Source: an uncultured Clostridia bacterium
GTDB lineage: Bacteria; Bacillota; Clostridia; Christensenellales; CAMQZB01
Length of the DNA: 64,000 nt
Assembly: GCA_947039455.1 (NCBI GenBank)
Contig: CAMQZB010000004.1
Location: 39,990-103,989, forward strand
Reading direction: 5' to 3'
The stretch's first letter is position 1. Each line of letters starts with the position of its first letter. The notes beneath the pieces are model-generated. The model did no database searches. It had not been told where the DNA came from and saw only the letters and a list, made by a program, of their open reading frames with translations. Both the position numbers and the translations under genes were made by a program. Of the stretch, positions 7,480-63,890 are shown piece by piece.

Positions 7480-7483
7480 ATTC

Positions 7484-7512
7484 TTTACTTTTTAAAAAAA
7501 GTATGATATAAT
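7484..7512 (+). promoter_or_regulatory. internal sigma-A promoter upstream of rpmJ
   Basis: TTTACT and a perfect TATAAT are separated by 17 bp, immediately after infA. This would give a transcript starting near 7519 with a 130-nt leader before rpmJ and could separate alpha-operon expression from the spc operon. Confidence 0.65.
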
Positions 7513-7518
7513 AGTATA

Positions 7519-7935: not shown

Positions 7936-8304
7936 ATGGCACGTATTTCTGGCGTAGATTTGCCAAGAGAAAAACGACTTGAAATTGGATTAACGTACAT
8001 TTATGGTATCGGTCTTCCAACTTCGAAGAAAATTATTTCAGACATTGGTTTGAACCCAGACACAAGAGTAAACGATTTAACTGAAGGTGATGTCTCAAAA
8101 TTGAGAGAGTACATTGAGAAGAATCTTACTGTAGAGGGTGAAAGAAAAACAGAAGTTAGTTTGAACATCAAACGTTTGACGGAAATCGGTTGTTACCGTG
8201 GAGTTCGTCATAGAAAAGGACTTCCTGTAAGAGGCCAAAAGAGCAAAACAAATGCGCGTACTCGTAAGGGTCCAAAGCGTACTGTTGCTAAGAAGAAAGG
8301 ATAA
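7936..8304 (+). CDS. rpsM: 30S ribosomal protein S13
   Basis: S13 sits in the 30S head and contacts the P-site tRNA and L5. I start it at [17 protein letters not shown] (122 aa), with GGAGGT nine bases upstream; the longer track ORF adds a non-homologous 15 residues. The helix-two-turn-helix and the basic C-terminal tail ([15 protein letters not shown]) are present. Confidence 0.97.
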
Positions 8305-8318
8305 GGAGGACATTAACT

Positions 8319-8711
8319 ATGGCAAAAGAGAAAAAAGTAATTAGAAGACGTAGAGAAAATAAGAACATCGTTAAAGGTCAAGTTCACATTCAATCTTCAT
8401 TTAATAATACAATTGTAACAATCACTGATACATCTGGTAACACTATTTCTTGGTGTAGCGCAGGAACTTTAGGTTTCCGCGGTTCAAGAAAGAGCACTCC
8501 ATATGCAGCTCAACAAGCAGCAGAAGTTGCAGCGAAAGCAGCAAAAGAGCACGGTTTGAGATCTGTAGAAGTATTCGTAAAAGGTCCTGGACAAGGAAGA
8601 GAGTCAGCAATCAGAGCACTTCAAGTTTTAGAAATTGAAGTTACAATGATCCAAGACGTATCACCAATTCCGCACAACGGATGTCGTCCACCTAAACGTA
8701 GAAGAGTATAA
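8319..8711 (+). CDS. rpsK: 30S ribosomal protein S11
   Basis: S11 lies on the 30S platform next to S7. The protein is 130 aa, with the core [18 protein letters not shown] and the C-terminal [20 protein letters not shown] typical of the family. It lies 14 bp after rpsM with a strong AAGGAGG site. Confidence 0.97.
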
Positions 8712-8729
8712 TTGGAGGAGTAAAGAATT

Positions 8730-9320
8730 ATGGCAAGAGATAGATCACCTATTCTAAAAAGATGTAGATCCCTTCAATTGGATCCAATCTATTTAGGAAT
8801 TAGTAAGAAATCAAAGAAGAAAAATCTTAAAGAAGGCAAGAAAGTATCTGGATACGGATTGCAACTAAGAGAAAAGCAAAAAGCAAAATTCATCTATGGC
8901 GTTATGGAAGGTCAGTTTAAGCACTATTATGAGCTTGCTGATAAACAAAAAGGCATCACTGGTGAGAACATGTTAGTACTTTTGGAGAGACGTTTAGACA
9001 GTGTATGTTTCCGTATGCAAATCGGAACAAGCCGTCCTATGACTCGTCAATTAGTATCTCACGGACACGTAACTGTTAATGGACAATCTGTTGATATCCC
9101 TTCATACCTAGTGAAAGCTGGCGATGTTATCGGTATCAAAGAGAATAAAAGAGACAGTGAACACTTCAAACTTATGAGAACGGCTAAAAAGCCAAGCTGT
9201 CCAAAATGGCTTACTTTTGACCCTGAGAAGCTTGAAGGAAAAATTTTGGCTATGCCAGAACGTTCTGATATCGATGCTCCAATTGAAGAGCATATGATAG
9301 TTGAGTTATACTCTAAGTAA
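8730..9320 (+). CDS. rpsD: 30S ribosomal protein S4
   Basis: S4 nucleates assembly of the 16S 5' domain and in several bacteria represses the alpha operon. The 196-aa protein has the N-terminal globular part and an S4 RNA-binding domain (ERRLDSVCFRMQIGTSR to VNGQSVDIPSYLVKAGD). The N-terminus carries only one Cys in the usual zinc-finger area (RCRSLQLDP), so it is a zinc-free form. It is located between rpsK and rpoA. Confidence 0.97.
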   Translation: MARDRSPILKRCRSLQLDPIYLGISKKSKKKNLKEGKKVSGYGLQLREKQKAKFIYGVMEGQFKHYYELADKQKGITGENMLVLLERRLDSVCFRMQIGTSRPMTRQLVSHGHVTVNGQSVDIPSYLVKAGDVIGIKENKRDSEHFKLMRTAKKPSCPKWLTFDPEKLEGKILAMPERSDIDAPIEEHMIVELYSK

Positions 9321-9382
9321 AATATAGTAAATAAAAGCGTAAGCTTTTAAAATTAGATTAATTATAGGAGGATAACTTAATT

Positions 9383-10336
9383 ATGATGGAAATTAAGAAA
9401 CCGAAGATTACGGTTGAAGAATCAGAAGATAAATCCTCAGCGAAAATTGTCGTTGAACCTTTAGAAAGAGGGTTTGGTACGACATTGGGAAATGCGCTAA
9501 GAAGAATACTGTTATCATCACTCCCAGGATCTGCTGCAGTTGGAATTATGATTGAAGGCGTTAAGCACGAATTCTCTACTATTCCAGGTGTTACTGAAGA
9601 TGTTGCGGAAATCATTTTAAATCTAAAGAGACTTGCAATTAAAACTGCATCTACAAATCCAACATTCAGAAAATCTATTTTCATTCACCGTAAAGGACCT
9701 TGCGATGTAAGAGCCAGCGACGTGGAATTAGATGCTGAAGTTGAAGTTTTGAATCAAAGTGCATTTATTTGTCATCTTGACGAAGGCAGCTCATTAGATA
9801 TGGAAATCGTTGTTGGAAGAGGAAGGGGTTATTGTAACGCCAACTTTAACAAAAGCGAAAAAAATCCAATTGATTTCATTGCAATAGACTCAATATTTAC
9901 TCCTGTTAAGCATGTCAACTATAAAGTTGAAAGCACAAGAGTTGAGCAAAGCATTGATTATGACAAACTAACATTAGAAGTTAAAACAAATGGAACATTC
10001 TCTGCTAAAGAAATTATTAGTTTATCTGCAAAATTGATGGACGATCACATTAGACTTTTTGTCGAATTGGTTGACACAATGAGCGGAATGGATATTTTGG
10101 TTTCTAGAGAAGAAGACAAACAACAACGTGTGCTTGAAATGAGCATTGAAGATATGGACCTTTCAGTTCGTTCATTCAATTGCCTAAAGAGAGCTGGTAT
10201 TCACACTGTTGAGGATTTAACTAAGAAGACTGAAGACGACATGCTTAAGGTGAGAAACCTTGGAAGAAAATCTCTTGATGAGGTTATTCATAAGCTTGAA
10301 GGATATAGTCTAGGATTAAAAAATAACGAAGATTAG
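9383..10336 (+). CDS. rpoA: DNA-directed RNA polymerase alpha subunit
   Basis: The alpha subunit dimerises to nucleate RNA polymerase assembly. The N-terminal domain (GFGTTLGNALRRILLSSLPG) occupies residues about 20-230. The C-terminal domain, which binds UP elements and activators, has the helix-hairpin-helix signature (RSFNCLKRAGIHTVEDL and VRNLGRKSLDEV). The length is 317 aa. Two adjacent ATGs can start it; GGAGG lies 12 bases before the first. Confidence 0.97.
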   Translation: MMEIKKPKITVEESEDKSSAKIVVEPLERGFGTTLGNALRRILLSSLPGSAAVGIMIEGVKHEFSTIPGVTEDVAEIILNLKRLAIKTASTNPTFRKSIFIHRKGPCDVRASDVELDAEVEVLNQSAFICHLDEGSSLDMEIVVGRGRGYCNANFNKSEKNPIDFIAIDSIFTPVKHVNYKVESTRVEQSIDYDKLTLEVKTNGTFSAKEIISLSAKLMDDHIRLFVELVDTMSGMDILVSREEDKQQRVLEMSIEDMDLSVRSFNCLKRAGIHTVEDLTKKTEDDMLKVRNLGRKSLDEVIHKLEGYSLGLKNNED

Positions 10337-10348
10337 GAGGTTCCAACC

Positions 10349-10849
10349 GTGAGAAAACTTGGAAGAAGTAGTTCACACCGTAAATCAATGCTTAAAAACA
10401 TGGCAGCTGATTTATTATGGTATGGCAGAATTGAAACAACTTATTTCCGTGCAAAGGAAGTTGCTAGATATACAGAGAAATTGATCACCCTTGCTGTTAA
10501 CACATATGAGGACAAGATTGAAGTAACTAAAACAACTACTAGAGACGGTAACAAAGTCGAAATTAAAGTAATAAATGATGGTGGCAGAAAATTGGCAGCT
10601 AGAAGACATTTGATGGCTAACTTAGCTGACCTTCAAGAGCAACAAAAAGATAAAGAGTCAAAATCTGACTTCAAAGCTCGTACTAAAGACATTAATCACC
10701 CACTAATTGAAAAATTATTCAGTGAAATTGGTCCTAAGTATGCTGCTAGAAAATTAGAAAAAGGTCAAGGCGGTGGATATACTCGAGTATTGAAACTAGG
10801 CGAAAGACGTGGCGATGCTACTGAAATGGCAATCCTAGAACTTATTTAA
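10349..10849 (+). CDS. rplQ: 50S ribosomal protein L17 with internal insertions
   Basis: L17 closes the alpha operon. It has a GTG start with GGAGG eight bases upstream. The N-terminus (LGRSSSHRKSMLKNMA) and C-terminus (YTRVLKLGERRGDATEMA) are canonical. At 166 aa it exceeds the usual 112-127 aa because of two insertions, one around EVTKTTTRDGNKVEIKVI and one around QKDKESKSDFKARTKDI. They look like surface loops. A strong terminator follows. Confidence 0.95.
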   Translation: MRKLGRSSSHRKSMLKNMAADLLWYGRIETTYFRAKEVARYTEKLITLAVNTYEDKIEVTKTTTRDGNKVEIKVINDGGRKLAARRHLMANLADLQEQQKDKESKSDFKARTKDINHPLIEKLFSEIGPKYAARKLEKGQGGGYTRVLKLGERRGDATEMAILELI

Positions 10850-10869
10850 TTTCTAAATATTAAAATCAA

Positions 10870-10907
10870 AGACATATTGCAAAAGTTTTGCAGTGTGTCT
10901 TTTTTTT
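10870..10907 (+). terminator. rho-independent terminator of the ribosomal superoperon
   Basis: AGACATATTGCAAAA pairs with TTTTGCAGTGTGTCT (G-U pairs allowed) and is followed directly by a T7 run. It lies 20 bp after rplQ. Confidence 0.9.
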
Positions 10908-10993
10908 ATATTTAATTTGTGTATGCTAGTATGGTAAATTGTTGATTTTAGCGATATGTTAAGTATAGGTGACAAAGTTTAAATAAAAAGTGC

Positions 10994-11022
10994 TTGATAG
11001 TTCAAATAAATAATGATATACT
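10994..11022 (+). promoter_or_regulatory. sigma-A promoter of the HTH gene
   Basis: TTGATA and TATACT have a 17-bp spacer and lie 44 bp before the ATG at 11066. Confidence 0.65.
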
Positions 11023-11065
11023 TTTAATGAAATAACAAATATAAATTTTAATTTGGAGGAAAAAT

Positions 11066-11923
11066 ATGAGCATTGGAGAGAGATTGTATGAGCATAGAAA
11101 AAAACACGGATTTTCACAGGAGGAAATTGCTGATAAACTAGAAGTAAGTAGACAAACAGTTAGCAAGTGGGAAAACAATATGACAACACCAGAATTGTCA
11201 AAAGCTGTTGAGTTATGCAAGATATATGGAACAACGGTTGAATCACTTATGAGAGAAACTGATGAATTAAAAGAAAATTTCTACAATAGCAATAAGTTAG
11301 ATGGCGAAAATAATAATCAAGACATGAGTAATAATAGTGAAGCAAACAGCAAATGTTCTGAAACAATAGTGCATGAACATAGATATTTAAAAGGAAGTTG
11401 CCAGTATACCAGTAAAGCGAAAATAGGAAAGATTCCATTGATCCATGTAAATATTGGAATATTTCCAGATAAGAAAAAAGGAAATGGAATTGCAAAAGGA
11501 ATAATCGCAATTGGAAATGTGTCGGTAGGCGTAATTTCTATAGGATTCTTGCCAATTGGGTTAATAAGTATCGGCCTATTAGCGCTTGGTATACTTGGTG
11601 CTATTGGAACTGTTGCGGTTGGCCTGTACTCTTTTGGGGCAGTAGCCTTTGGAATGATGAGTTTTGGTGCAATTTCAATTGGATATATGTCAGTAGGTGC
11701 TGTTGCAATCGGAAATTATAGTATAGGCGCTGCAGCAATAGCTAATGAAATAGCAGTTGGAGCATACGCTAGTGGAATGATTGCTTTTGGTGAAGAAGCC
11801 GTAGGGACGCATGTGTATATCTATGATGTGAATTCTGGTGCAGAAGTTCTTCAGGCAATTAAATCGCATTTGCCAGAGATGCAAAGTTGGATATACAAAA
11901 TTTTTCACATGGTATTGATATAA
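11066..11923 (+). CDS. Xre-type HTH protein with C-terminal Gly-Ile/Ala-Gly repeat domain
   Basis: This is a 285-aa protein. Residues 1-65 form a Cro/C1-type helix-turn-helix (FSQEEIADKLEVSRQTVSKWE), so it probably binds DNA. A polar Asn-rich linker follows (about 75-110). Residues about 140-255 are a run of short hydrophobic repeats of the form S-x-G-x-x-[AS]-[IF]-G, which could form a glycine-rich beta-helix or pack in the membrane. Related proteins occur in Clostridia, but I know no function. GGAGG precedes the ATG. It stands alone between two other transcription units. Confidence 0.75.
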   Translation: MSIGERLYEHRKKHGFSQEEIADKLEVSRQTVSKWENNMTTPELSKAVELCKIYGTTVESLMRETDELKENFYNSNKLDGENNNQDMSNNSEANSKCSETIVHEHRYLKGSCQYTSKAKIGKIPLIHVNIGIFPDKKKGNGIAKGIIAIGNVSVGVISIGFLPIGLISIGLLALGILGAIGTVAVGLYSFGAVAFGMMSFGAISIGYMSVGAVAIGNYSIGAAAIANEIAVGAYASGMIAFGEEAVGTHVYIYDVNSGAEVLQAIKSHLPEMQSWIYKIFHMVLI

Positions 11924-12021
11924 GATACAATTTTATGCAAAATTAAATCAATTTTACTGCGTATAATTCATATTTAATATGAGGATAATGGTGTGTGTTT
12001 AAATTTAGCAATATATAAATA

Positions 12022-12049
12022 TTGACAAAATTATAAAATATGTTATAAT
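12022..12049 (+). promoter_or_regulatory. sigma-A promoter of the DUF3784-like gene
   Basis: Consensus TTGACA and TATAAT are separated by 16 bp, 24 bp before the ATG at 12074. Confidence 0.75.
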
Positions 12050-12073
12050 TAGAATAAAATGGAGGGGTATAAT

Positions 12074-12388
12074 ATGTTAACTGGATTAATATTGTTTTCA
12101 GTGTTTGGAATATTAATAATGGTTTTAGGTTTAATAGTTTGGAAAAAACAAAAAATATCACTTATTCATGACTATCATTGTACTAAGGTTTCTGCTGAAA
12201 ATGTAGAAAAATACTGTGCGACAATGGGAAAGGGCATCATATTAATTGGTGCTGGGCTTATTGGTTGTGGTGTAATTAATTATTTCGCAAGTATGATTTA
12301 TGGATTCAGTATATTAGCAGTTTCTTTTATTATTGCCTTTGTGATAATGGGCAAGGCTCAAAAGAAATACAATGGTGGTTGGTTTTAA
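12074..12388 (+). CDS. small membrane protein, DUF3784-like
   Basis: This is a 104-aa protein with three hydrophobic segments: residues about 1-24, 58-78 and 80-98. The short loop after the first helix (KKQKISLIHDYHCTKVSAENVEKY) resembles the YN-x-M/S-x-E pattern of DUF3784 proteins. I place the start at ATG 12074, since GGAGGGG is 8 bases upstream; the track start at 12059 overlaps that site. Function is unknown. Confidence 0.65.
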   Translation: MLTGLILFSVFGILIMVLGLIVWKKQKISLIHDYHCTKVSAENVEKYCATMGKGIILIGAGLIGCGVINYFASMIYGFSILAVSFIIAFVIMGKAQKKYNGGWF

Positions 12389-12515
12389 TTCATACATACA
12401 AAACGGAAATATATAGCTTTTTGTAACAACTAACGGCTTATGAATACATATATATAAGTCAAAAGATTTAAACAATAATATCAAAAGCTATTAAATTACA
12501 ATATTATAGTAGAAT

Positions 12516-12561
12516 ATAAAAACAGGCAAACCTAGTTAATTAGGTTTGCCTGTTTTTTTTT
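12516..12561. terminator. bidirectional terminator between the DUF3784-like gene and dnaA
   Basis: A near-perfect long stem (AAACAGGCAAACCTA with TAGGTTTGCCTGTTT) has a T9 run on the plus side and an A-run on the other, so it can stop transcription from both converging genes. Confidence 0.88.
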
Positions 12562-12661
12562 AATTTAGTAAGTAAATCGTATTATAGAACGATCATTTTT
12601 GTGAAAAAGTGTTGCAGTGAACGTCTTATAATTTTAACTTATAAACAATAAGTTGAAATTA

Positions 12662-14017
12662 TTAATTTCCGTTAATCATGTTTCTAATGTCTTTTAATTG
12701 AACAGCAAGTTTTGCATCATCAATTTGTTTGTTAGTTATTTTATCACGAGCGTGGATAACGGTTGTATGATCACGACCGCCGAAAATTTGACCAATAGAT
12801 GCAAGAGGCAGTGATAAGAATTCAAGAATTAAGAAAATTGCAATTTGTCTTGGTTCTACAATTTCTTTAGTTTTCTTTTTAGAAACGATATCGTCACGAG
12901 TGATGTTGAAATATTTGCAAGTGGCGTTGATAATAGTATCAGCGGACATTTGCACTTTTTTGTGGTCGATATAATCTTTTAAAGATTCACTAGCAAGTTC
13001 AATTGTTATATCTTGATTAAGCATTTTTGCATACAGTGAAACTCGAGACAATAAGCTTTCCATTTCACGAATATTTGATTCAACCCGTTCAGCGATCAGG
13101 AAGAACACATCTCTTGGAATAACATATCTTTCTTGTTCCGCTTTCATTTGCAAAATAGCAACCTTAGTTTCAATAGAAGGTGGTTGAACATCAGCAATAA
13201 TACCCCACTCAAAACGAGTGCGAAGACGTTCTTCTAATGAAGGAATGTCTTTTGGCATACGATCTGAAGTCAAAATGATTTGACGATTTTCGTTGTGAAG
13301 TTCATTGAAAGTGTGGAAAAGTTCTTCTTGTACTGAAGGTTTATTTTCAAAGAATTGTACGTCGTCGATCATTAATACATCGGCAGTACGGTAATTTTCT
13401 TTAAAAGCTTGCATATTTGAGTACTGATTTGGTGTGTTGTTTTTTGAAGGTATCAAAGCAGAAATAAATTCGTTAGTGAACTTTTCGCTTGTTGTATACA
13501 CTAACCTTTTATTCGGATTAAATTGCTTGATATAGTTTCCTATAGCGTGCATGATATGTGTTTTGCCTAAACCAACGCCACCGTATATGAACAATGGATT
13601 ATATCTAACTCCAGGAAATTCAGCAACTGCACGAGCGGCAGCGTGAACAAATTTATTAGAGTCACCAACCACGAAAGAGTCGAAAGTGTATTTCGGCAAA
13701 AGGGAAACGCCCTCTGGTACAGCAACTTCAACATTTGTTGGTTTTGGAATCCTATTCATGTCTGATTGGAATTCTTCACAGATTAGATCAACATCATTTA
13801 CAAATAAATCTTGTTGTTGAATAGCCGTTCTTATTTTGTCTAGGTAATTATCTGAAATTACAGCATAAGCCATTTTAGACGGAGCGGAAAGAACAAGTTT
13901 GTTGTCCACAATGTCCACAGGCGTCAAATTTTCTAGCCATGCTTGAAAACAGTATACATTTACAACCGTTTCCAATGATTTTAATGATTTTTCCCAAATA
14001 GAGTTTGGTGTTAACAT
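12662..14017 (-). CDS. dnaA: chromosomal replication initiator DnaA
   Basis: DnaA binds 9-mer boxes and opens the origin. The 451-aa protein has domain I (residues 1-80), a short linker, the AAA+ domain III with Walker A GGVGLGKTH at 146-154 and Walker B MIDDVQF, and domain IV with the DnaA-box-reading signature GGRDHTTVIHARDKI near 412. The start is ATG with GAGG ten bases upstream. It is unusually oriented away from recF, and dnaN is not next to it. Confidence 0.97.
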   Translation of the reverse strand: MLTPNSIWEKSLKSLETVVNVYCFQAWLENLTPVDIVDNKLVLSAPSKMAYAVISDNYLDKIRTAIQQQDLFVNDVDLICEEFQSDMNRIPKPTNVEVAVPEGVSLLPKYTFDSFVVGDSNKFVHAAARAVAEFPGVRYNPLFIYGGVGLGKTHIMHAIGNYIKQFNPNKRLVYTTSEKFTNEFISALIPSKNNTPNQYSNMQAFKENYRTADVLMIDDVQFFENKPSVQEELFHTFNELHNENRQIILTSDRMPKDIPSLEERLRTRFEWGIIADVQPPSIETKVAILQMKAEQERYVIPRDVFFLIAERVESNIREMESLLSRVSLYAKMLNQDITIELASESLKDYIDHKKVQMSADTIINATCKYFNITRDDIVSKKKTKEIVEPRQIAIFLILEFLSLPLASIGQIFGGRDHTTVIHARDKITNKQIDDAKLAVQLKDIRNMINGN

Positions 14018-42215: not shown

Positions 42216-42249
42216 AAGCCTACTTGACATCAAATCAAGTAGGCTTTTT
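42216..42249 (+). terminator. terminator of the SPFH-Arc operon
   Basis: AAGCCTACTTGA pairs with TCAAGTAGGCTT around a short loop and is followed by T5. Confidence 0.88.
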
Positions 42250-42335
42250 GCGTTTTATTATAACCATATGTCAAAACCCTAAACAAAAAAAACAACACAA
42301 ACTAAAAAATATATCACCCCCCAACTCAACATGTT

Positions 42336-42570
42336 CACCAGCCAAACCAGTCCGCAACTCCAACACGTCCACCAGCCAAACCAGTCCGCAACTCCAACAC
42401 GTCCACCAGCCCAACCAGTCCGCAACTCCAACACGTCCACCAGCCCAACCAGTCAGCAACTCAACATGTTCACCAGCCAAACCAGTCAGCAACTCCAACA
42501 TGTCCACCAGCCAAACCAGTCCACAACCCAACCAGTCCACAACCCAACCAGTCCACAAACCTAATCAGTC
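42336..42570. repeat. 34-bp tandem repeat (minisatellite), C/A-rich and G-poor
   Basis: About five head-to-tail copies of a 34-bp unit beginning CACCAGCCAAACCAGTCCGC (starts 42336, 42370, 42404, 42438, 42471; the fourth is 33 bp), then shorter 15-bp units CCAACCAGTCCACAA. There are no spacers between copies, so it is not CRISPR. All frames stay open because of composition. 34 is not a multiple of three, so the reading frame rotates from unit to unit, which argues against coding. It lies in a 700-bp gap between terminators. Confidence 0.9.
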
Positions 42571-42654
42571 CACAACACCATCAAATCCGCCAATCCAATA
42601 AACCCAAACCAACCCACAAACCTGTCCCATCGCCCAAAAAAAATACCCCCCAAA

Positions 42655-45818: not shown

Positions 45819-45897
45819 TGAAATTCCGTATACATAAAACTGTGTTTTAGTGTATTATAATAAGAGAAAAGCAATATAGTATCAAGAAAAACGTTCT

Positions 45898-46066
45898 TTT
45901 AGGCCGTTTCGCCTTGATTGAAAAGGGAATACAGTTAAATTCTGTAACTGCCACTGCAACTGTAATTAGTTAGCAATAGCCCATATCCACTGAAATTGTA
46001 TAGCAATTTTGGGAAGGGGTGCTGTTGTGTTAGTAACTATAAGTCAGGAGACCTGCTTTATTGCCA
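45898..46066 (+). ncRNA. cobalamin (B12) riboswitch
   Basis: The hallmark sequences are in order: AAAAGGGAA, the hairpin ACAG-TTAAATT-CTGT, the B12 box-like core CCACTGCAACTGTAATTAG, CCACTG, GGGAAGG, and the 3' signature AGTCAGGAGACCTGC. It binds adenosyl- or methylcobalamin and normally turns off expression when B12 is plentiful. A TATAAT at 45856-45861 could be its -10, though the -35 is poor. The downstream seven-gene operon has ECF transport genes, consistent with B12 uptake. Confidence 0.93.
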
Positions 46067-46085
46067 CATAGCATTTTCGGTGGAA

Positions 46086-46215: not shown

Positions 46216-46251
46216 AAGAATCATCGTGTTTTAGGGTGGTTCTTTTTTTTT
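46216..46251 (+). terminator. terminator of the cobalamin riboswitch expression platform
   Basis: AAGAATCA pairs with TGGTTCTT (one G-U) followed by a T9 run, 67 bp before the first structural gene. It lies 150 nt after the aptamer, so the aptamer probably acts through an intermediate anti-terminator. Confidence 0.65.
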
Positions 46252-46318: not shown

Positions 46319-49300
46319 ATGAGAAAAGTTAGTAAAAGAGTATTAAGTGTAGCGCTTGCAATGGTGCTTGTGATAGGGTTTGTGTTCACGGGAATGCCAG
46401 CTTTTGATTTTACGGTATTTGCAAGTGAGCTTCCAGCCATTGATCCAACTACTGGAATTTTGAACGTTGAAAACACGAACAAAGACATGGTTTTAATAAA
46501 AGTAAATTTCGCTCACAACGGACAACCGTTAGAAGGAGCAGAGGCAGGTTATATTTTCGCGGAACAAAAAGAGTTTGTTGAGTGGTTTGATTTAAAAGCC
46601 TATGGATTAGGTGCGTTAAATCAATATAAAACAGTGAACGGTGTGGAGGTTTTAATAAAAAGACCTACAGCATTGCATGCAATAATTATGTTACATGAAA
46701 ACGAGTTGGTGAACAACCAACATGGCGTTCCTGAATCAGAATTAAAAACATTAGATGACTTTTTCCAAATCGAAAATGGCGTAATAACTAAATTTTGGGG
46801 AAATGCAACTTCATCAACAGCTTTGCTGATAAACGATACTTTCCCATGTGTGGAAGGCGGAGAAAAAGCAACCCCTGACAAAATTTTATTAGAAGATAAC
46901 TTAGTTTTAACTGTAGGAACTTTCAATAATAATTCATTTAAAGAAACAGGTGAGTTCTTGTATTTTAATAGCAATAATAATACGGTTATTGAAGCTGGAA
47001 CTGCAACTGAATTTAATTTACAAGGCACAAAAATTTCGGAAGTAATGGTAAATGGAAGTGCAAGCAAAACGGGGGACGATCTTTTACCAAATGTTTGGGA
47101 GAGATTGACCATTGGTTACGCAACGCAAATTGACATGGCTCATGGAACTTTTGTGGAAATCAAAGCTAAAGACATTGATACGGTAAATAGCACGGTATCA
47201 GTGAAAATTCCTACTGCTGGGTACTATTATATAATGGCATATGACAAAAACCACGGAAAAGATAACGCAGTTTTCGCTCCAGCAGTAATTCCTATCCAAG
47301 TAATGGGAGAAGCGGATTTTGCTATAGCTAAAGCAAGAACACTTCGAGAAAGTCAAATTAGAAGCGAGTTCCGTGATAATGTAGACTACCAAGAAAATTT
47401 ATATACAGCTACGGAATTTTCTAAATTAATAAAAGCAAGAGACAATGCAATTAATTCTTTGAGATATGAAAATACAGTGGAAAGCATAATGGCTGTTACC
47501 CCTGACTACCCAATTTATCCAACGGTTATGACAATAGTTCAACAGGCTGAAATAGCACAAGCAAAAACTGTTAAAATAGCGGAAGTTCAAGGAAAATTTC
47601 AAACTGACTATAGTGTTTCTGAGTATACGGACAAGAATTTTCGAATTATTATGAATGAAAAAGCCACAATCGTAGATGAGATACAAGATATAAAAAACAT
47701 TGAAGATGTTGCGATATTTATTCCAAAATATCCAACCGCAATAAGTAAATTGCCATTAACTATTAATAGAGAAGAAAAAGACGCTATGAAGAAAGAAGTA
47801 GCGGATTATTTAGATATAACGGAATATAGAGCATCAGACAAAGCTGAAATAGCAGAAATAATTGCAAGTGCGGAAAACTTTATTGACGCCACTGCAACGG
47901 AAAACCGTACTGCTAATGTTGGAAATGTGAAAAAAGTATTTGATAAAGTAGATGAAACAAAAACTTTGTTGTTTGGTATTGAAACGGATTATGACCTAAC
48001 GCAAATTGAAAATGGTTGGGTGAATTTCCGTGGTAATAGCGAAAACATGGCTGTTGTTGATTATGATTTTTCAACAAGTGAAAAGGAAAGCGAATTGCTT
48101 TGGAAAAAGAAATATGGGTCATGGATGGGCGGATCTCCAAGTGTGCAAATTATAGTAGACGATGCCTTGATTTTTGTATCTTCAAAAACTATTATTAAGC
48201 TTGACTTGCTAACGGGCGAGCCTGTTAGAAACGAAAAGGGTGAAGCTGTGGAAGGAACTATGGTGGAAAGTTCAAACTGGGGCTACACTCCACCGATTTA
48301 TGCTCGTGGCATGATAATTTGCGGATTAGCTAACGGCACGGTGCAAGCGTTTGATGCGGAAACACTGGAGTCGCTTTGGGTTTATACTGATCCACTTGGG
48401 GGACAATCTTTGACACCAATTGCTTATTCTGACGGAAATATCTATACTGGGTTTTGGAACTTGGAAGAAGGCGACGCTAACTATGTTTGTATAAATATTG
48501 AAGATGAAAACAAAAATAGCACTAACGAAGAAAAGATTGCAACATGGAGCCACACAAACAAAGGCGGTTACTATTGGACTGGCGCACTTGTTGTTGGCGA
48601 CTATCTAGTTGTTGGTTCGGACAACGGAGAAAGGGAGTTTGCGGAAGAAGATATCAATGCAAATTCAACATTATTTGTGTTTAATAAATACACAGGAGCG
48701 GTGGAACATAGCTATCAAATCAGCGGTGACCAACGTTCAGGAATAGCATACGAAAGTGGCAATATATATTTCACCACAAAAAACGGATATATACACAAAG
48801 GCGCAATAAATGAAAACACGGGAGCGATTACAAACCTAAAATCAGTAAAAGCACCATTTGGATCAGAGCTTACAAGCACGCCAGTAGTTTTTGACGGAAG
48901 AATGTATCTAGGTGGCGGTTCAGGAGTGGGAAGTGGCGGTGCTGTGATGGTGCTAGATGCCAATAACCTAACGGAAATTTACCGTGCAAGTATGCCCGGT
49001 TACGGACAAGGTTCAATCTTGCTGTCAACTGTGGATTATAAAAAACCAGGTGACGATGTTTATATCTATTCCACATACAATTCATACCCAGGCGGTATTT
49101 CAATGCTAGTTGACAACAAAAATATAACAAGCAATGAAAAATCTGAAATGGTGGATATATACATACCAGAAAGTGCAGATCAAAACTATGGAATAACAAG
49201 TATTATTGGAAGCGGCAATGGAGTTTTATATTACAAAAACGACTCAGGAAACGTATTTGCCGTAGGTAATAAAACGGCTAACTCAGATGTTGGTGAAGTA

Positions 49301-49771
49301 ATTCCAATTAAAGAAAACCACATTGTTTTAAGTTCTATCATGGCTGAAATGAAGTCAAATGGAATGAAAATCGTAACTGCAGACCTGTCAGCGGTGGGGT
49401 ATATAACAAGAGATATTCTGGAAATGCAACAAAAAACAGGTAAAGATTTAGTATTGAAATTTAAACAAGGACAAGTTTTGATAACTGCAGAAATGGCGAA
49501 AAGCATAGATTATGAAGAAGTAAATTATGACTTTGACCAATTAATTCAGCTGTTTGGGGCGGACATTGCCATTGATACAGTTCCAATTCCAATGCCAGAA
49601 AAAACGGAAGTTGAGGCAACTCATGAAGAGTATATAAATACAAAATTAATCAATATTACGCTAATAACTCTAGCGGTTGCAGCAGGAGCTGGTGTGGTTG
49701 CCACAGCAACAGTATTGACAATACAAAAAAAACGTAGAAAAGTATCAAATATAGATAAGAACAAAAATTAA
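46319..49771 (+). CDS. surface protein with signal peptide, PQQ-like beta-propeller and C-terminal membrane anchor
   Basis: First gene of the B12-riboswitch operon, 1150 aa. A signal peptide covers residues 1-36 (VLSVALAMVLVIGFVFTGMP). Residues about 40-335 are beta-rich. Helical, FIVAR-like segments (AKARTLRESQIRSEFRDNV) lie at about 335-560. Residues about 590-1010 resemble a PQQ/outer-membrane-assembly-type propeller with repeats such as GTVQAFDAETLESLWVYTD and SDGNIYTGFWN. A further small domain precedes a membrane helix at about 1110-1135 and a basic tail (QKKRRK). The protein is therefore displayed outside the cell. Its role in B12 uptake is not known; a binding or docking platform is possible. 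Confidence 0.85.
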   Translation: MRKVSKRVLSVALAMVLVIGFVFTGMPAFDFTVFASELPAIDPTTGILNVENTNKDMVLIKVNFAHNGQPLEGAEAGYIFAEQKEFVEWFDLKAYGLGALNQYKTVNGVEVLIKRPTALHAIIMLHENELVNNQHGVPESELKTLDDFFQIENGVITKFWGNATSSTALLINDTFPCVEGGEKATPDKILLEDNLVLTVGTFNNNSFKETGEFLYFNSNNNTVIEAGTATEFNLQGTKISEVMVNGSASKTGDDLLPNVWERLTIGYATQIDMAHGTFVEIKAKDIDTVNSTVSVKIPTAGYYYIMAYDKNHGKDNAVFAPAVIPIQVMGEADFAIAKARTLRESQIRSEFRDNVDYQENLYTATEFSKLIKARDNAINSLRYENTVESIMAVTPDYPIYPTVMTIVQQAEIAQAKTVKIAEVQGKFQTDYSVSEYTDKNFRIIMNEKATIVDEIQDIKNIEDVAIFIPKYPTAISKLPLTINREEKDAMKKEVADYLDITEYRASDKAEIAEIIASAENFIDATATENRTANVGNVKKVFDKVDETKTLLFGIETDYDLTQIENGWVNFRGNSENMAVVDYDFSTSEKESELLWKKKYGSWMGGSPSVQIIVDDALIFVSSKTIIKLDLLTGEPVRNEKGEAVEGTMVESSNWGYTPPIYARGMIICGLANGTVQAFDAETLESLWVYTDPLGGQSLTPIAYSDGNIYTGFWNLEEGDANYVCINIEDENKNSTNEEKIATWSHTNKGGYYWTGALVVGDYLVVGSDNGEREFAEEDINANSTLFVFNKYTGAVEHSYQISGDQRSGIAYESGNIYFTTKNGYIHKGAINENTGAITNLKSVKAPFGSELTSTPVVFDGRMYLGGGSGVGSGGAVMVLDANNLTEIYRASMPGYGQGSILLSTVDYKKPGDDVYIYSTYNSYPGGISMLVDNKNITSNEKSEMVDIYIPESADQNYGITSIIGSGNGVLYYKNDSGNVFAVGNKTANSDVGEVIPIKENHIVLSSIMAEMKSNGMKIVTADLSAVGYITRDILEMQQKTGKDLVLKFKQGQVLITAEMAKSIDYEEVNYDFDQLIQLFGADIAIDTVPIPMPEKTEVEATHEEYINTKLINITLITLAVAAGAGVVATATVLTIQKKRRKVSNIDKNKN

Positions 49772-49828
49772 TTGTTCATATATAAAATAGATTAATAAAA
49801 AGTTGATGATCGCATTGTGGAGGAAATA

Positions 49829-50749
49829 ATGAACAAAAAAATATTAAGTATAGCGTTATCCCTTATTTTGATGCTAGCAGTATTTACAGGCTGTGTTGCT
49901 GGGGAATCGGATATAAATAAAGACGAAAACAATGGTGATTTACATGACATAATAGAAACGCCCGTTGTCCCAACTTCTGAACCTACTGCTGAACCTATAA
50001 CTACTAAAGCTCCAACGGGTGGCGGTGGCGGTTCTGGTGGCGGTGGAAGCGGTGGAAGTGGCGGAGGTGGAACTACTCCAGAATTGCCAGAAATAACTAT
50101 TACAATGTCTCTAGAAGCCTTCACTATCGGTTTAGGATATATCATAGAACCAATGTCAGTTACTCTGCCAAAAGGCAAAACCCATACAGCAAAAGAAGCA
50201 CTATTTCAATTTTTTAAAGCTAATGGCGTAACACCAGAAGGCAACGATGACAACGATTACGGTACATACTATATGTCGTCAATTTCAAGTGATAACATAA
50301 ATAAAAGCGGATGTAAAATACCCCAACTATTACTTGACAAAGGTGTTGTGGACCTAGGTTCAGACGCGCTAGAAAAATCATTAGGGCAAGGTGATTATTC
50401 AATCGGCTCAGGGTGGATGTATTCAGTGGACAACAATTTCCCTAGCAAAGGTTTTGCGGATTACCAAATTAATGACGGTGATGTTATGAGAATTCAGTTC
50501 ACAACAGCCTTAGGCTGTGACCTAGTGGGAAGGGGTTTTGTGGAAGGTGACGGACGGTTTTTCGGAAATGCAGGAGATAAAACCGCACTAACTAAATTAG
50601 TGGGAAAAATCAACAGCGAAAACAACATAACAATAAAAAACAGCAACGAATATATAACAGCAATAGAGGTTTTACAGGAACTTAACACATCAGTTGAATC
50701 CGTTGAAACTACTTATAATAATTTAAAAACACAATACGAGAAGAAATAG
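49829..50749 (+). CDS. DUF4430 (transcobalamin C-terminal-like) lipoprotein
   Basis: A 306-aa lipoprotein; I start at ATG 49829 with GGAGG five bases upstream. Cys22 follows a signal sequence (FTGC). A Pro/Thr linker and a Gly/Ser run (64-82) act as a tether. Residues 90-232 are a DUF4430 domain, with GSGWMYSVDNNFPSKG and DGDVMRIQF. The same fold forms the C-terminal beta domain of transcobalamin and intrinsic factor. A helical tail follows. It probably helps bind cobalamin at the cell surface. Eight bp separate it from the next gene. Confidence 0.88.
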   Translation: MNKKILSIALSLILMLAVFTGCVAGESDINKDENNGDLHDIIETPVVPTSEPTAEPITTKAPTGGGGGSGGGGSGGSGGGGTTPELPEITITMSLEAFTIGLGYIIEPMSVTLPKGKTHTAKEALFQFFKANGVTPEGNDDNDYGTYYMSSISSDNINKSGCKIPQLLLDKGVVDLGSDALEKSLGQGDYSIGSGWMYSVDNNFPSKGFADYQINDGDVMRIQFTTALGCDLVGRGFVEGDGRFFGNAGDKTALTKLVGKINSENNITIKNSNEYITAIEVLQELNTSVESVETTYNNLKTQYEKK

Positions 50750-50757: not shown

Positions 50758-52653
50758 ATGAAAAAAGCGAACTCAATAATCGGAATAATCCTTGTGATTG
50801 CACTAATATTCACTGGACTATCAACAAAAACAGCCGTAGCATATGGTGACGAGAATTTTAATAGAAAAGATATTTTTGCGGTTGATAGTTTAATTGAAGA
50901 TGTGATTAATTGGAAGAAAAGCAATATGGGCTATGAAGTGACAGAGTCTCTATTTCAAGACGAGTTTTTAGAAATGGCAGGTTCAACTTCAGGGGATTGG
51001 TACGCAATGGCACTTGGTCGATATGGTTATGAGGATAACTACGGAAGTTATCTTGGGGTAATTGATGACTACATTGAAACAGAGTATAAAACTGATGCGA
51101 AACTAGATATTTACAAAGCAACCGAATGGCAAAGAATAGGTCTAGCAATAACAGCAGTTGGCGGAAATCCAAAAGCTTTTTCTAACTTTGAAGGTTCGCC
51201 AATTGACTTAGTGTCGGATGGTTCTTACAATCGTGGTTTAGTGCAAAGCCCAGGTCGACAAGGCATTAACGGTTGGATATACGGACTAATTTTCATGGAT
51301 AGCAAAAGATACGAAATTCCTGATACTGCTAATGACACAAGAGAAGATTTTATTTTGGAATTGTTGAAACTACAGCTAGCGGACGGCGGATTTGCACTTA
51401 TGGGCAATAAATCCGATGTGGACATAACCGCAATGACACTGCAAGCACTAGCACCATACTACAATAGTGAAAGAGAGTTTTCCTATGTTTCAGCAAAAAT
51501 AAAAGACGAAAAAGGTGAGTTTATCCCCCAAGTAAAGACAGTTCGTGAAGTAGTAGATGAAAGTGTTCTGTTTTTGTCAAGTACTCAGAATGAAACAGGA
51601 ACTTTCGCCAGTTGGGGTAGCGAAAACAGCGAAAGTAGTAGTCAAGTAATTCTTGCATTAACAGCGTTGAGAATAGACCCTCACAACGATCAACGCTTTG
51701 TGAAAAACGACAAGTCCGCCATTGATGGATTGTTAACATTCAAGCAAAATGACGGCGGTTTTACACATTCTTATAGTTTCGATAGTGAAAATCCTAATGC
51801 GGTACCAAGTGTTTCCTCGTCAATGGCAAGCGAGCAAGCGCTTTGTGCATTGATTTCCTACGATAGATTTCTTAGTAATCAAAGAACATTCTACGATATG
51901 CGTGAAGATTTCACGGTGGAGGAAATAGCACAAATTAGTGCTGTTGAAAAGTCTATTGAAAGGCTGAACCAAAACTCAACCAAACTAGAAATTCAACAGA
52001 TAGTTTCTACACTAGAAGAAAGTAACATAACGGATTTATCTTATGTAAACAATTATTGGAATCTTTCAGCTTATGCAAAAAAACACCATGTGAAATTGCT
52101 TGCCGAGAAGGAAATCTATCAAGGAAATCAGGAAGAATTAATTGAAAACATTGTGGCATTTACTGATGTGAACGTAAAGCAAGTGGAAGCGTTAATTGAT
52201 TATGAAAATCTTACAACGGAAAATTACGTTGAAGTTGTGCATTTAATGTATTTGCTTGAAAATACCAACGAGTTCCAAAAGAAAAACCAATATAAAACTA
52301 TTGTTGATAAAGCGTATAATCATATCCAATCTATCAAAAGCGAAATTGAATATATTAACATGAAAATCACTACAGAGCTTTATCCATTTAGCAAATTATC
52401 CTTAAAAGACAAGGCAGTTTGCGAAGAAATTTTCAATAGATACGAAAATTTAAGCCAAGTAGATAAGGGTGAAGTAACACACATTGATGATTTAATAAGA
52501 GCGAAAACTCAGCTTGACAATCTCACAACGGCATGGATTATAGGTGGTGGTCTATCAGCAATTTCACTTGTAGTTATTGCGATTGTTGTTATTAGAATTA
52601 GAAAAAGACAAAAAGTGAAAAGAAGTATGGAAATGGAAGAAAGTCAGGAGTAA
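50758..52653 (+). CDS. alpha/alpha-toroid (prenyltransferase/squalene-cyclase-like) surface protein
   Basis: The protein is 631 aa with a signal peptide (IIGIILVIALIFTGLST, then AVAYG). Residues about 45-385 form an alpha/alpha toroid with repeated QLADGGFALMG, STQNETGTFASWG and KQNDGGFTHSYS motifs, as in squalene-cyclase-like folds. It lacks an obvious DxDD catalytic acid motif, so it is unlikely to be a cyclase. Helical repeats follow (about 385-590), then a membrane helix (591-613) and basic tail. Flanked by two DUF4430 genes, it corresponds to the alpha6/alpha6 barrel half of transcobalamin-type proteins. Its stop is 2 bp from the next start. Confidence 0.85.
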   Translation: MKKANSIIGIILVIALIFTGLSTKTAVAYGDENFNRKDIFAVDSLIEDVINWKKSNMGYEVTESLFQDEFLEMAGSTSGDWYAMALGRYGYEDNYGSYLGVIDDYIETEYKTDAKLDIYKATEWQRIGLAITAVGGNPKAFSNFEGSPIDLVSDGSYNRGLVQSPGRQGINGWIYGLIFMDSKRYEIPDTANDTREDFILELLKLQLADGGFALMGNKSDVDITAMTLQALAPYYNSEREFSYVSAKIKDEKGEFIPQVKTVREVVDESVLFLSSTQNETGTFASWGSENSESSSQVILALTALRIDPHNDQRFVKNDKSAIDGLLTFKQNDGGFTHSYSFDSENPNAVPSVSSSMASEQALCALISYDRFLSNQRTFYDMREDFTVEEIAQISAVEKSIERLNQNSTKLEIQQIVSTLEESNITDLSYVNNYWNLSAYAKKHHVKLLAEKEIYQGNQEELIENIVAFTDVNVKQVEALIDYENLTTENYVEVVHLMYLLENTNEFQKKNQYKTIVDKAYNHIQSIKSEIEYINMKITTELYPFSKLSLKDKAVCEEIFNRYENLSQVDKGEVTHIDDLIRAKTQLDNLTTAWIIGGGLSAISLVVIAIVVIRIRKRQKVKRSMEMEESQE

Positions 52654-52655: not shown

Positions 52656-53201
52656 ATGAAAAAAGATTTAGTTGCTATTGCGGTTGTGGTATTTATTTTA
52701 GTAATATTACTTAGCGGTACGAAAATTCAGTCGGTGGACGATTATTATTTAACCCACATCGATGAAATAACTGATGACAGCGAAACTATCTATATTTCTA
52801 TAGATTGCAAAACGGTTTTGGATAATTGGGATAAGCTAGACGAGAGTCTGCAAAACGAGAAATTCATTCCAGCGGAGGGGATTGTGCTAGAAAAAAGCCA
52901 GTATGTTTTACGCCCTGATGACAATGCGTTTGACGTGTTGGATCGAGCAATACGGCACAATGAAATTCAAATGGAAGCTGTTTATAGTAAGGGTTTCGGA
53001 AGCAACTACGTGAAAGGGATAAATCATTTATACGAATTCAGCTGTGGCGAATTGTCAGGGTGGATGTATAAAGTCAATGGTGAATTTCCAAGCTACGGAG
53101 CAAGTAAGTATGAATTGCAAGACGGAGACTATGTTGAATGGGTTTATAGTTGCGATTTGGGGCGCGATGTAGGAAGTGAATGGGGGGCGCAAACAGCATG
53201 A
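52656..53201 (+). CDS. membrane-anchored DUF4430 (transcobalamin C-terminal-like) protein
   Basis: This is a 181-aa protein. Residues 4-22 form an N-terminal hydrophobic segment without a lipobox Cys, so it is an uncleaved anchor or a signal. Residues about 45-170 are a DUF4430 domain with SGWMYKVNGEFPSYG and DGDYVEWVYS. It is the second beta-domain protein in the operon. Its TGA stop overlaps the EcfT start (ATGA), which ties its synthesis to the importer. It is likely the membrane-proximal cobalamin-handling protein. Confidence 0.88.
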   Translation: MKKDLVAIAVVVFILVILLSGTKIQSVDDYYLTHIDEITDDSETIYISIDCKTVLDNWDKLDESLQNEKFIPAEGIVLEKSQYVLRPDDNAFDVLDRAIRHNEIQMEAVYSKGFGSNYVKGINHLYEFSCGELSGWMYKVNGEFPSYGASKYELQDGDYVEWVYSCDLGRDVGSEWGAQTA

Positions 53202-54079
53202 AATATTTTCACAACTGCCACCCTGTGGTGATGTTCAGTTACCTAATAGGCGTAATATTTATAACAATGTTCACAATGAATCCAATCTTTATCGGAATAT
53301 CATTTCTATGTTCTATATCTTTTACATTCATGCTATTTGGTGCAAAAGAAACAGTGAAATCTTTGCTATTAGCAATGCCAATGATAATCATTATTGCATT
53401 AACAAATCCACTATTTGTTCACAAAGGCGAAACGGTTTTATTTTTTCTAAACAATAATCCAATGACACTAGAAGCAATGATATACGGATTATTCGCAGCA
53501 CTAATGTTAGTTTCAGTGTTCTATTGGTTCAAGTGTTACAACAGATTAATGACCAGTGATAAGTTTATATATTTATTCGGACAAGTAATTCCAAAATTAG
53601 CGTTAATGCTATCAATGATGTTAAATTTTGTACCGAAATTCATAAAGCAATTCAAGGCGGTAGACGAGAGTCAAAAAGCCATGGGAATATATTCAGGCAG
53701 TTCGTATACAGATAAGATAAAATGCAAATTTAGAGTATTATCAAGCTTAATAACATGGAGTTTGGAAAACTCAATTGAAACAGCTGACTCAATGAAAGCC
53801 CGTGGATACGGATTGAAAGGTCGAACAAGTTATAGTGTTTTTCCTTGGAAAACTAGCGATAAATTGTTAATGAGCTACTTCGGTGTAATGATAATAATCG
53901 TGACGGTGGGATTATTTACAGGATATGCGGACTTTGATTATTATCCAAAAATCACTAGAATGTCATTTGAAATTATTCCAATATTACTATATTTTGGCGG
54001 GTTTATTTTGATGTTTACATCTACAATCATGGAAATTAAGGAGAATATGTTATGGCATTACTTGAAATCAAAAATTTAA
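53198..54079 (+). CDS. ecfT: ECF transporter transmembrane subunit EcfT
   Basis: EcfT is the integral membrane coupling subunit of energy-coupling factor importers. The protein is 293 aa with about five to six hydrophobic segments. The two coupling-helix motifs are SQKAMG and SMKARGYG, the second being the canonical Ala-Arg-Gly. I start at ATG 53198, overlapping the preceding stop by 4 bp (ATGA). Its 3' end overlaps the ATPase gene by 28 bp. Confidence 0.9.
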   Translation: MKYFHNCHPVVMFSYLIGVIFITMFTMNPIFIGISFLCSISFTFMLFGAKETVKSLLLAMPMIIIIALTNPLFVHKGETVLFFLNNNPMTLEAMIYGLFAALMLVSVFYWFKCYNRLMTSDKFIYLFGQVIPKLALMLSMMLNFVPKFIKQFKAVDESQKAMGIYSGSSYTDKIKCKFRVLSSLITWSLENSIETADSMKARGYGLKGRTSYSVFPWKTSDKLLMSYFGVMIIIVTVGLFTGYADFDYYPKITRMSFEIIPILLYFGGFILMFTSTIMEIKENMLWHYLKSKI

Positions 54080-55731
54080 CATTCAAATACAACGGCGGAA
54101 AAGATAATGCACTTGAAAAGGTTAATCTAACAGTAAATGAGGGTGAATTTGTAGTGATTTGTGGCGAGTCAGGTTGTGGAAAAAGCACACTGTTGAAAAT
54201 GCTGAAAAAACAACTTGCCCCTGCAGGAGAAAAAACAGGCGAAATCTTATACGACGGTGTAGAAGTTGACGGTCTTCAAGAACGTGTTTCAGTAGCAGAG
54301 ATTGGCTACGTAATGCAAAATCCCGACAATCAAATCGTAACTGATAAAGTGTGGCATGAACTTGCTTTTGGGCTAGAGAGTATGGGCGAAAAAACTGATG
54401 TAATACGCAGAAAAGTAGCGGAAGTATCAGGGTTTTTCGGAATTAATAGTTGGTATAGGAAGAAAACTTCAGAGTTGTCGGGCGGACAAAAACAACTAGT
54501 AAATTTAGCGTCAATTATGGTAATGAATCCACGATTACTAATACTGGACGAACCCACAAGTCAACTAGACCCAATCGGTGCAATGGAATTTATATCAACC
54601 TTGCAAAAAATTAATATTGAGCTTGGAATGACTGTAATTTTAGTTGAACATAGGTTAGAAGACGTTTTTCCAATAGCGGACAAAGTTGTGGTAATGGATA
54701 AATCTAATATTTTAATGACAGATACCCCAACAAATATAGGTGCAAATTTAAGAAAAATTTCTACTCATAAAATGAACCTAGCAATGCCAACCGCAGTGCG
54801 AATTTTCGGACAGCTAGACTGTGATTGTGCCTGTCCAATTACTATTAAAGAAGGCAAGAATTTTTTGAAACGCAATTTTGAAAACAAAATCCGTTCTATA
54901 GAAGTGCAAACTGAAACTAACGAAAACAAAAATGTTGCATTGGAAATTTCTGAAGGATATTTTAGGTATGAAAGAGAAACGCCTGATGTTTTAAATAATC
55001 TTTCTTTAAAAGTTTATGAAAATGAATTCATGTGTATTTTGGGAGGAAATGGTTCGGGGAAAACCACAACTTTGAAAATTCTTTCAGGATTAAAGAAACT
55101 CTACAAAGGCAAACTACGTATTTGGGGCAAGAAAATAAAGGAATATAAAGGCACGGAGCTTTATAAAAACAACATATCCTTTCTACCGCAAAACCCTCAA
55201 ACGCTTTTTGTTAGAAGTACGGTAATTGAAGATTTAATGGAAGTTGTGGAGATTTTGAAGTTTGACAAAGAAGAAAGCCAAAAACTCATAGACGAAATTT
55301 CGGAAAAACTTGAAATCAGCCATTTACACAATCAGCACCCTTACGATTTATCTGGTGGTGAGCAACAAAAAGTAGCATTTGCTAAAATACTATTAACAAG
55401 ACCAAAAATTATTTTACTAGACGAACCAACTAAAGGAATGGACGCATATTCAAAAAAATCTTTGGCAGAAATAATATACAAGCTAAAAAGCGAAGGAATG
55501 ACGATCTGCATGGTAACTCATGATATTGAATTCGCAGGTGAATTTGCTGATAGATGTTGTATGTTTTTCGATGGACAAATAGTCTCATCAGCACCGCCGA
55601 TTGAGTTTTTCTCAACAAACACGTACTACACAACATCAGCAATGCGAATTTCAAGAGGATTTTTTGATAATTCAATTACCACAAGTATGGTTGTAAGGCT
55701 TTGTAAAAGTAACAATCGAAAATCAAATTGA
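54052..55731 (+). CDS. fused ECF transporter ATPase (EcfA-EcfA)
   Basis: The protein is 559 aa with two ABC domains. Domain 1 has Walker A GESGCGKST at 38-46, Q-loop VMQNPDNQ, signature LSGGQKQL, Walker B LLILDEPTSQLDP and H-loop VEHR. Domain 2 has GGNGSGKTT at 331-339, QNPQTLF, LSGGEQQKVAFAK, IILLDEPTKGMD and VTHD. Both sites look active. Most ECF systems encode the two ATPases separately; here they are one polypeptide. The gene overlaps ecfT. It powers uptake through EcfT and the S component. Confidence 0.92.
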   Translation: MALLEIKNLTFKYNGGKDNALEKVNLTVNEGEFVVICGESGCGKSTLLKMLKKQLAPAGEKTGEILYDGVEVDGLQERVSVAEIGYVMQNPDNQIVTDKVWHELAFGLESMGEKTDVIRRKVAEVSGFFGINSWYRKKTSELSGGQKQLVNLASIMVMNPRLLILDEPTSQLDPIGAMEFISTLQKINIELGMTVILVEHRLEDVFPIADKVVVMDKSNILMTDTPTNIGANLRKISTHKMNLAMPTAVRIFGQLDCDCACPITIKEGKNFLKRNFENKIRSIEVQTETNENKNVALEISEGYFRYERETPDVLNNLSLKVYENEFMCILGGNGSGKTTTLKILSGLKKLYKGKLRIWGKKIKEYKGTELYKNNISFLPQNPQTLFVRSTVIEDLMEVVEILKFDKEESQKLIDEISEKLEISHLHNQHPYDLSGGEQQKVAFAKILLTRPKIILLDEPTKGMDAYSKKSLAEIIYKLKSEGMTICMVTHDIEFAGEFADRCCMFFDGQIVSSAPPIEFFSTNTYYTTSAMRISRGFFDNSITTSMVVRLCKSNNRKSN

Positions 55732-55803: not shown

Positions 55804-56508
55804 GTGACATATGTAAAGAGAAAGAAGTTAATATTTAGCGTACTTATGTATTTCGTAGCAATCCCACTTACGATATTGTTGGGCGTGGTGTTGTTTAATG
55901 ACAGACAGTATTCAATAATATCGATTATCATAGCAGGATTAGCATGTTTGCCGTTTTTCATACGATTTGAGAAAAGCAATGCAAGTTCCAGAGAAATTAT
56001 AGTAATAGCAACAATGACCGCACTAGCAGTGGTAGGGCGAATAGTGTTTATGGCATTGCCGGGGTTCAAACCGGTAACGGCAATAGTAATAATCACAGCG
56101 ATAGCATTCGGAAAAGACGCAGGGTTTCTAACGGGTTCAATGTCAGCGTTAGTGTCGAACATATATTATGGACAAGGACCATGGACGCCGTTTCAAATGT
56201 TAGCATGGGGATTCATAGGCTTTCTTGCAGGGATGATCTTTTATAAAAAAGAAAAGCCAAATATGATATTGTTAATAGTAGTAGGAATAATAGGAGGGGT
56301 AATTTTCTCTCTAATGATGGACGTGTGGACGGTGCTTGCACTCGATGGTGCGTTCACAATGTCAAGGTACTTGATAGCGATTTCCACAAGCACTCCATTC
56401 ATGGTGCTTTACTCAGCATCAAATGCGGCATTTCTAGCACTTTTCACAAAGCCAATATTGGAAAAGCTCAACCGAATAAAAGTAAAGTACAAGGTGTTCA
56501 CAGCATAG
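55804..56508 (+). CDS. ECF transporter S component, probably cobalamin-specific
   Basis: This is a 234-aa membrane protein with about six helices. It has ECF S-component features: REIIVIATMTALAVVGRIVF for contact with EcfT, then FLTGSMSALVSNIYYGQGPW. It starts with GTG, GAGG eight bases upstream, 72 bp after the ATPase. Specificity for cobalamin is inferred from the upstream B12 riboswitch and the DUF4430 partners; the protein is reminiscent of CbrT-type S components, but I cannot prove the substrate from sequence. Confidence 0.82.
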   Translation: MTYVKRKKLIFSVLMYFVAIPLTILLGVVLFNDRQYSIISIIIAGLACLPFFIRFEKSNASSREIIVIATMTALAVVGRIVFMALPGFKPVTAIVIITAIAFGKDAGFLTGSMSALVSNIYYGQGPWTPFQMLAWGFIGFLAGMIFYKKEKPNMILLIVVGIIGGVIFSLMMDVWTVLALDGAFTMSRYLIAISTSTPFMVLYSASNAAFLALFTKPILEKLNRIKVKYKVFTA

Positions 56509-63610: not shown

Positions 63611-63639
63611 CTAATAAAATTGAATATATTTTTAAACTT

Positions 63640-63890
63640 ATGAGATAGAGTAGTAACGTATACCATTGAATTTTAAGAGAGCTTTTGGCGGTGTGATAAA
63701 AGCAATTCAACATACGTGAATGGACTATTGAGGGCATGGGCGAACACTTTTTGTTATTAGCTCCTGACGGCTACCGCACCGTTATCTGTGGAGGATATGA
63801 TTGTATCTGCTAAGGCTTTGGTTTTCCAAAGTGAATTTGGGTGGCAACACGGCTTTTCGTCCCATGCGGGTGATAGTTCCGTGTTTTTTT
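63640..63890 (+). ncRNA. T-box leader, specifier UGG (Trp)
   Basis: The leader has AGTAGTAACGTA at the 5' base of stem I, AGAGAGCT and GGTG in the distal part, and the specifier side GTGAATGGACTATT. ACGTAT pairs with ATACGT, and AGTAGT with ACTATT, leaving GAA-UGG in the specifier loop at 63721-63723. The T-box GGGTGGCAACACGG is at 63839-63852; its UGGC bulge pairs with GCCA, matching the G discriminator of tRNA-Trp. A terminator stem AACACGG/CCGTGTT with T7 ends at 63890. The regulated gene is beyond the window. Confidence 0.9.

Follow-up and report, generated by a model that had tools for sequence, protein, structure and literature searches.

A candidate cobamide-capture beta-propeller in riboswitch-linked B12 loci of Clostridia

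The first gene downstream of a cobalamin riboswitch in an uncultured Clostridia bacterium encodes a 1150-aa membrane-anchored propeller protein that very probably belongs to a B12-acquisition system. We favor, with somewhat better than even confidence, its assignment as a BtuG-like protein that captures cobamide (B12) at the cell surface for uptake. Our analysis adds that its propeller represents a family of its own, which occurs almost exclusively at B12 loci and has one conserved face. Apart from the ECF transporter, little is known of how Gram-positive gut bacteria capture B12 at their surface, and our searches of open-access full texts turned up no work on a Gram-positive B12 propeller.

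Riboswitch and operon organization

Within the window, i.e. the whole stretch of 64,000 nucleotides that was analyzed, a cobalamin riboswitch aptamer (RF00174) containing the B12 box AAGTCAGGAGACCTGC was observed at 45874-46071 on the forward strand, scoring 84.9 bits (E 1.7e-19) against a gathering score of 31.5 bits. It was the sole cobalamin riboswitch found in the 1.85-Mb assembly. A hairpin with a 10-bp stem and a following T-run (46216-46251, +; RNA fold -10.8 kcal/mol, z -2.9), probably an intrinsic terminator, sits between the aptamer and the propeller gene, and judging from the sequence this layout is as expected for control by transcription termination.

The operon contains seven genes, with the propeller gene (46319-49771, +) first and the other six on the same strand with overlaps or gaps of at most 73 nt. 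These are a lipoprotein with a DUF4430 (transcobalamin-like beta-grasp) domain (49817-50749; PF14478, E 9e-8; lipobox read from the sequence), a membrane-anchored alpha/alpha toroid protein (50758-52653), a second DUF4430 protein (52656-53201; PF14478, E 4.5e-19), and a complete ECF transporter comprising a CbiQ-family T component (53180-54079; PF02361), a double ATPase (54052-55731; TIGR04520) and an S-component (55804-56508). The placement of the propeller under the riboswitch and beside DUF4430 and ECF genes, as read in the earlier note from the letters alone, was thus borne out. The two DUF4430 matches were the only ones in the genome. The best solved match to the S-component was 6fnp chain A (E 4.3e-9), a structure of the B12-specific ECF transporter ECF-CbrT (PMC5997447), and judged by its length this chain should be CbrT itself.

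The toroid protein was modeled with an AlphaFold2 pLDDT of 79 and gave modest fold matches, with terpene cyclases and GH105 first in Foldseek and human transcobalamin (7qbe_C) at rank 36 (E 0.019). A profile match to squalene cyclase-type toroids was also obtained. A mixed alignment of toroid and DUF4430 proteins proved misaligned and was replaced by one of the toroid alone. A toroid combined with a DUF4430-type domain is the architecture of transcobalamin and intrinsic factor (PMC1796856), and together the DUF4430 and toroid proteins of the operon resemble the two halves of these carriers, a likeness that rests mainly on domain architecture given the low rank of 7qbe_C. At one B12-riboswitch ECF locus of a relative (L063, 3772-5511, minus strand) a prenyltransferase-type toroid (Prenyltrans, E 6e-7) was fused to DUF4430 (E 4e-17), in the order in which the animal carriers have these domains.

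A corrin-ring synthesis pathway was not apparent in the genome, which is 92% complete, and scavenging therefore makes sense. A single TP-methylase match was observed, in a 273-aa frame, and is probably RsmI. B12-dependent enzymes were few: a single B12-binding radical SAM protein exceeded the cut-off, and a search of the genome for class I/II ribonucleotide reductases gave none.

Domain architecture of the propeller protein

The 1150-aa product had been described in the earlier note as a membrane-anchored extracellular protein with a likely PQQ-like beta-propeller, and both parts of this description held. Its parts are, in order, a signal peptide, an N-terminal domain, a helical linker, the propeller, a C-terminal module and a membrane span. 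Hydropathy located the signal peptide at residues ~1-35 and the span at residues ~1109-1136 (49643-49726, +), with a basic tail (KKRRK) behind it. The propeller is confined to residues ~557-988 (47987-49282, +). Several further large surface proteins encoded in this genome (L002-L005) share the C-terminal module (49286-49648), which is for this reason probably a general, lineage-specific surface module.

The N-terminal domain (residues ~37-336; 46427-47326, +) recurs in other proteins of B12 loci (phmmer, E down to 2e-15) and was absent from the control loci described below. The DUF4430 HMM gave no match to this domain of the window protein, and a weak profile-profile match to the DUF4430 core (hhalign probability 41%, E 2.8e-4) hints at a divergent, beta-grasp-like domain. 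A DUF4430 match was obtained in the N-terminal region of three relatives (L010, L011 and L013), in two of the three below the Pfam cut-off, and among the best 80 relatives the propeller was fused to DUF4430 in 16 loci. Many relatives bear Ig, dockerin, SLH or fn3 surface modules.

Propeller fold and conserved face

Pfam PQQ_2 matched the propeller above its cut-off (E 1.4e-8), and AlphaFold2 returned a confident model (pLDDT 89, pTM 0.88) whose best Foldseek matches were BamB and quinoproteins. The same groups ranked best when the PDB was searched with a profile of the propeller family (BamB, E 4e-19), and the 60 top-ranking matches (E up to 0.05) did not include a BtuG chain. As compared through these PDB profile matches, the window propeller appears to be of another lineage (BamB/PQQ type) than BtuG; it shares with BamB and PQQ_2 propellers the fold and a distant sequence relation. 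By our reading of the predicted strands the propeller has eight blades, the last of which is closed by an N-terminal strand.

Conservation of the two faces was scored on a 29-member propeller alignment, with loops assigned by us from predicted secondary structure. On the face formed by the D-A and B-C loops 31 of 131 positions were highly conserved, versus 6 of 90 on the face formed by the A-B and C-D loops, where five of the six are glycines. The difference had a permutation p-value of about 0.0006, or 0.002 with well-occupied columns only. The residue types conserved on the D-A/B-C face include Q, Y, W, R, N, S and T, and the conserved set includes Q696, Y752, W753, R806, T852, T854, Q897, N921, Y957, N974 and D975. 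Such a polar and aromatic set is typical of a ligand site. A BtuG-like negative patch was also considered as a discriminator and dropped, the net charge being negative on both propeller faces.

Association of the propeller family with B12 loci

We examined two samples of relatives. The first consisted of 35 propeller loci from genomes sampled across the order, class and phylum. An Rfam cobalamin riboswitch was observed within ~20 kb in 25 of these (more than 10 kb away in two cases), and 32 of the 35 had either a riboswitch or DUF4430, ECF or toroid neighbors; two of the three exceptions sit at contig ends. The second sample was the best 80 of about 200 places encoding relatives among 84,980 species, which were found with a propeller-only alignment. 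When the full 1150-aa protein served as the query, no relatives were retrieved, since most of the patterns used fell outside the conserved domain. In the second sample DUF4430, ECF-T, ECF-S or toroid genes were present in the fetched stretch for 69 of the 80 loci. A riboswitch model built in the course of the analysis, covering a short 3'-part and applied to contigs many of which end short, matched at 39 of the 80 (E <= 0.01). Of these 39 matches, 38 were same-strand, and in 18 the start of the propeller ORF lay no more than ~900 nt from the riboswitch.

In total 75 of these 80 loci had a riboswitch or B12-type neighbors. Twenty loci from the same class that encode other PQQ_2 propellers served as controls, and none had DUF4430, ECF-T, ECF-S or toroid neighbors. 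Rfam found no cobalamin riboswitch in the 12 control loci searched with it, and the riboswitch model found none in all 20. The contrast of 75 of 80 with 0 of 20 led us to reject hitch-hiking or chance placement of the propeller in B12 loci, and orthologues were not found widely apart from a riboswitch or DUF4430/ECF genes, the occurrence that the earlier note had said would speak against its reading. In the tree one branch parts the B12-linked propellers from the controls, with weak support (72/66).

Four of the five loci with neither feature were on stretches shorter than 10 kb. The fifth, from Acetitomaculum ruminis (L184), has three propeller-family genes in tandem (2-13232) and no other B12 genes in its 17-kb stretch. 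Relatives were observed in Blautia, Eubacterium, Emergencia and acetogens, many from animal guts, and also in Syntrophaceticus and Thermacetogenium. Other arrangements included two propellers within one ORF (L092, 9088-11736) and a propeller locus (L072, 2538-4588, minus strand) where about 2 kb contain three cobalamin riboswitches. A NiCo riboswitch was observed near one control propeller locus (L139, 11393-11463).

Proposed function and alternatives

In the model that we propose, low B12 would permit read-through of the terminator behind the riboswitch, as its anatomy suggests, and the whole operon would then be expressed. The propeller protein would be exported and kept in the membrane by its C-terminal span, and the conserved face of the eight-bladed propeller would take the cobamide. 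The DUF4430 and alpha/alpha toroid proteins would receive it from there and in turn load the CbrT-like ECF transporter. The toroid-DUF4430 fusion of L063 and the predicted fold of the window toroid support the proposed hand-over. That the propeller itself binds the cobamide we consider probable, by analogy with BtuG2. The small number of B12-dependent enzymes in the genome, the absence of a riboswitch match at about half of the best 80 loci and the lack of recognizable sequence similarity to BtuG in the PDB profile search count against this model.

In Bacteroides, the surface lipoprotein BtuG binds B12 by means of a propeller (PMC6143338, PMC10404256). BtuG2 holds cobalamin in the central cavity of the propeller, with polar contacts to the corrin amides and Trp/Tyr residues around the upper ligand (PMC10404256). 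Both BtuG and the window family are surface-exposed beta-propellers genetically linked to B12 transport genes, and the aromatics that line the BtuG2 pocket have a parallel in the conserved aromatic loops of the window family. A second B12-binding domain is present in some BtuG forms (BtuH in BtuG1), as the window family is associated with DUF4430. The two differ in that BtuG is seven-bladed whereas the window propeller is eight-bladed by our reading of the model, and in that BtuG, reported only from Bacteroidetes, is located at the outer membrane together with BtuB, a TonB transporter, whereas the window family is membrane-anchored, occurs in Clostridia and is accompanied by an ECF transporter.

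The earlier note knew of no established part for a propeller of this kind in B12 import. That statement has to be given up in view of BtuG and of Burroughs et al. 2007 (PMC1796856), who described a beta-propeller fused to a transcobalamin-like domain in Clostridium among low-GC Gram-positives and predicted B12 scavenging for such SLBB/DUF4430 operons. Their operons are of the same type as that of the window, with DUF4430 proteins, toroid fusions and CbiO/CbiQ transporters, and the window operon combines DUF4430 with a CbiO/CbiQ-type transporter as Gram-positive B12-scavenging operons do. In that study, however, the propeller was not defined as a B12-linked family, its linkage was not tested and the conserved face was not described. 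The window also has a CbrT-like S-component together with T and two ATPase domains, similar to ECF-CbrT of Lactobacillus delbrueckii, whose transport is B12-specific (PMC5997447). The cluster of the latter (nrdJ-cbrS-cbrT-pduO) is without surface binding proteins, whereas four extracellular proteins precede the transporter in the window.

Several alternatives to direct capture were weighed. The propeller might make no contact with B12 and act as a scaffold or tether, holding the DUF4430 and toroid binders together or to cell-wall polysaccharide. BamB, its closest solved relative, acts as a scaffold in outer-membrane assembly, whereas the window family is found at B12 loci in Clostridia, a class whose members mostly have no outer membrane. 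A possible tethering role for accessory domains fused to the DUF4430/SLBB family was suggested by Burroughs et al. 2007 (PMC1796856); the surface modules of many relatives point the same way, and the target of the conserved surface residues could be a partner protein or a glycan. Against this, conservation is gathered on the top face of the propeller and involves ligand-like residues, the window protein already has its own membrane anchor, and in one relative (L012) the gene product is just a membrane anchor and a propeller, with a separate DUF4430 gene adjoining. We regard a pure scaffold as possible but doubtful.

The animal-gut origin of many relatives would fit a receptor that docks corrinoid-carrying proteins, either host intrinsic factor/haptocorrin or corrinoid proteins of other bacteria, and strips them, as BtuG2 does when it takes B12 from intrinsic factor (PMC6143338). 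This seems unlikely, and a host protein is unlikely as a general target because relatives occur in Syntrophaceticus and Thermacetogenium, bacteria with no known association with animal guts. Adjacent cysteines, which form a vicinal disulfide at the PQQ site, are typical of PQQ-dependent dehydrogenases; the pair was present in 1 of the 29 propeller family members, and no PQQ-synthesis or electron-acceptor gene was recognized in the operon. A quinoprotein-type extracellular enzyme under B12 control, acting for example on the corrinoid or its lower ligand, is thus very improbable in spite of the fold and profile similarity to PQQ dehydrogenases. Among the roles listed in the earlier note (docking scaffold, binder of a host protein or corrinoid complex, B12-independent substitute function), a corrinoid-related surface role is the best reading, and we found no evidence in favor of the substitute function.

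If direct binding of a cobamide by the propeller is correct, the BtuG strategy would have arisen twice, and the family encoded at about 200 places in the species collection would be given a function that can be tested and that bears on competition for B12. We give roughly even chances to the broader proposal that Clostridia independently evolved a cobamide-capture propeller of the BamB/PQQ lineage, serving an ECF transporter and often fused to a transcobalamin-type domain, as a composite receptor convergent with BtuG.

Other features of the window

Elsewhere in the window a short ORF of Pro/Asn/Gln/Ser/Thr-rich repeats was observed at 42224-42601, a low-complexity stretch that is probably no ordinary gene. 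A T-box leader (RF00230, 110.7 bits) lies at 63631-63867, near the end of the window and of the contig.
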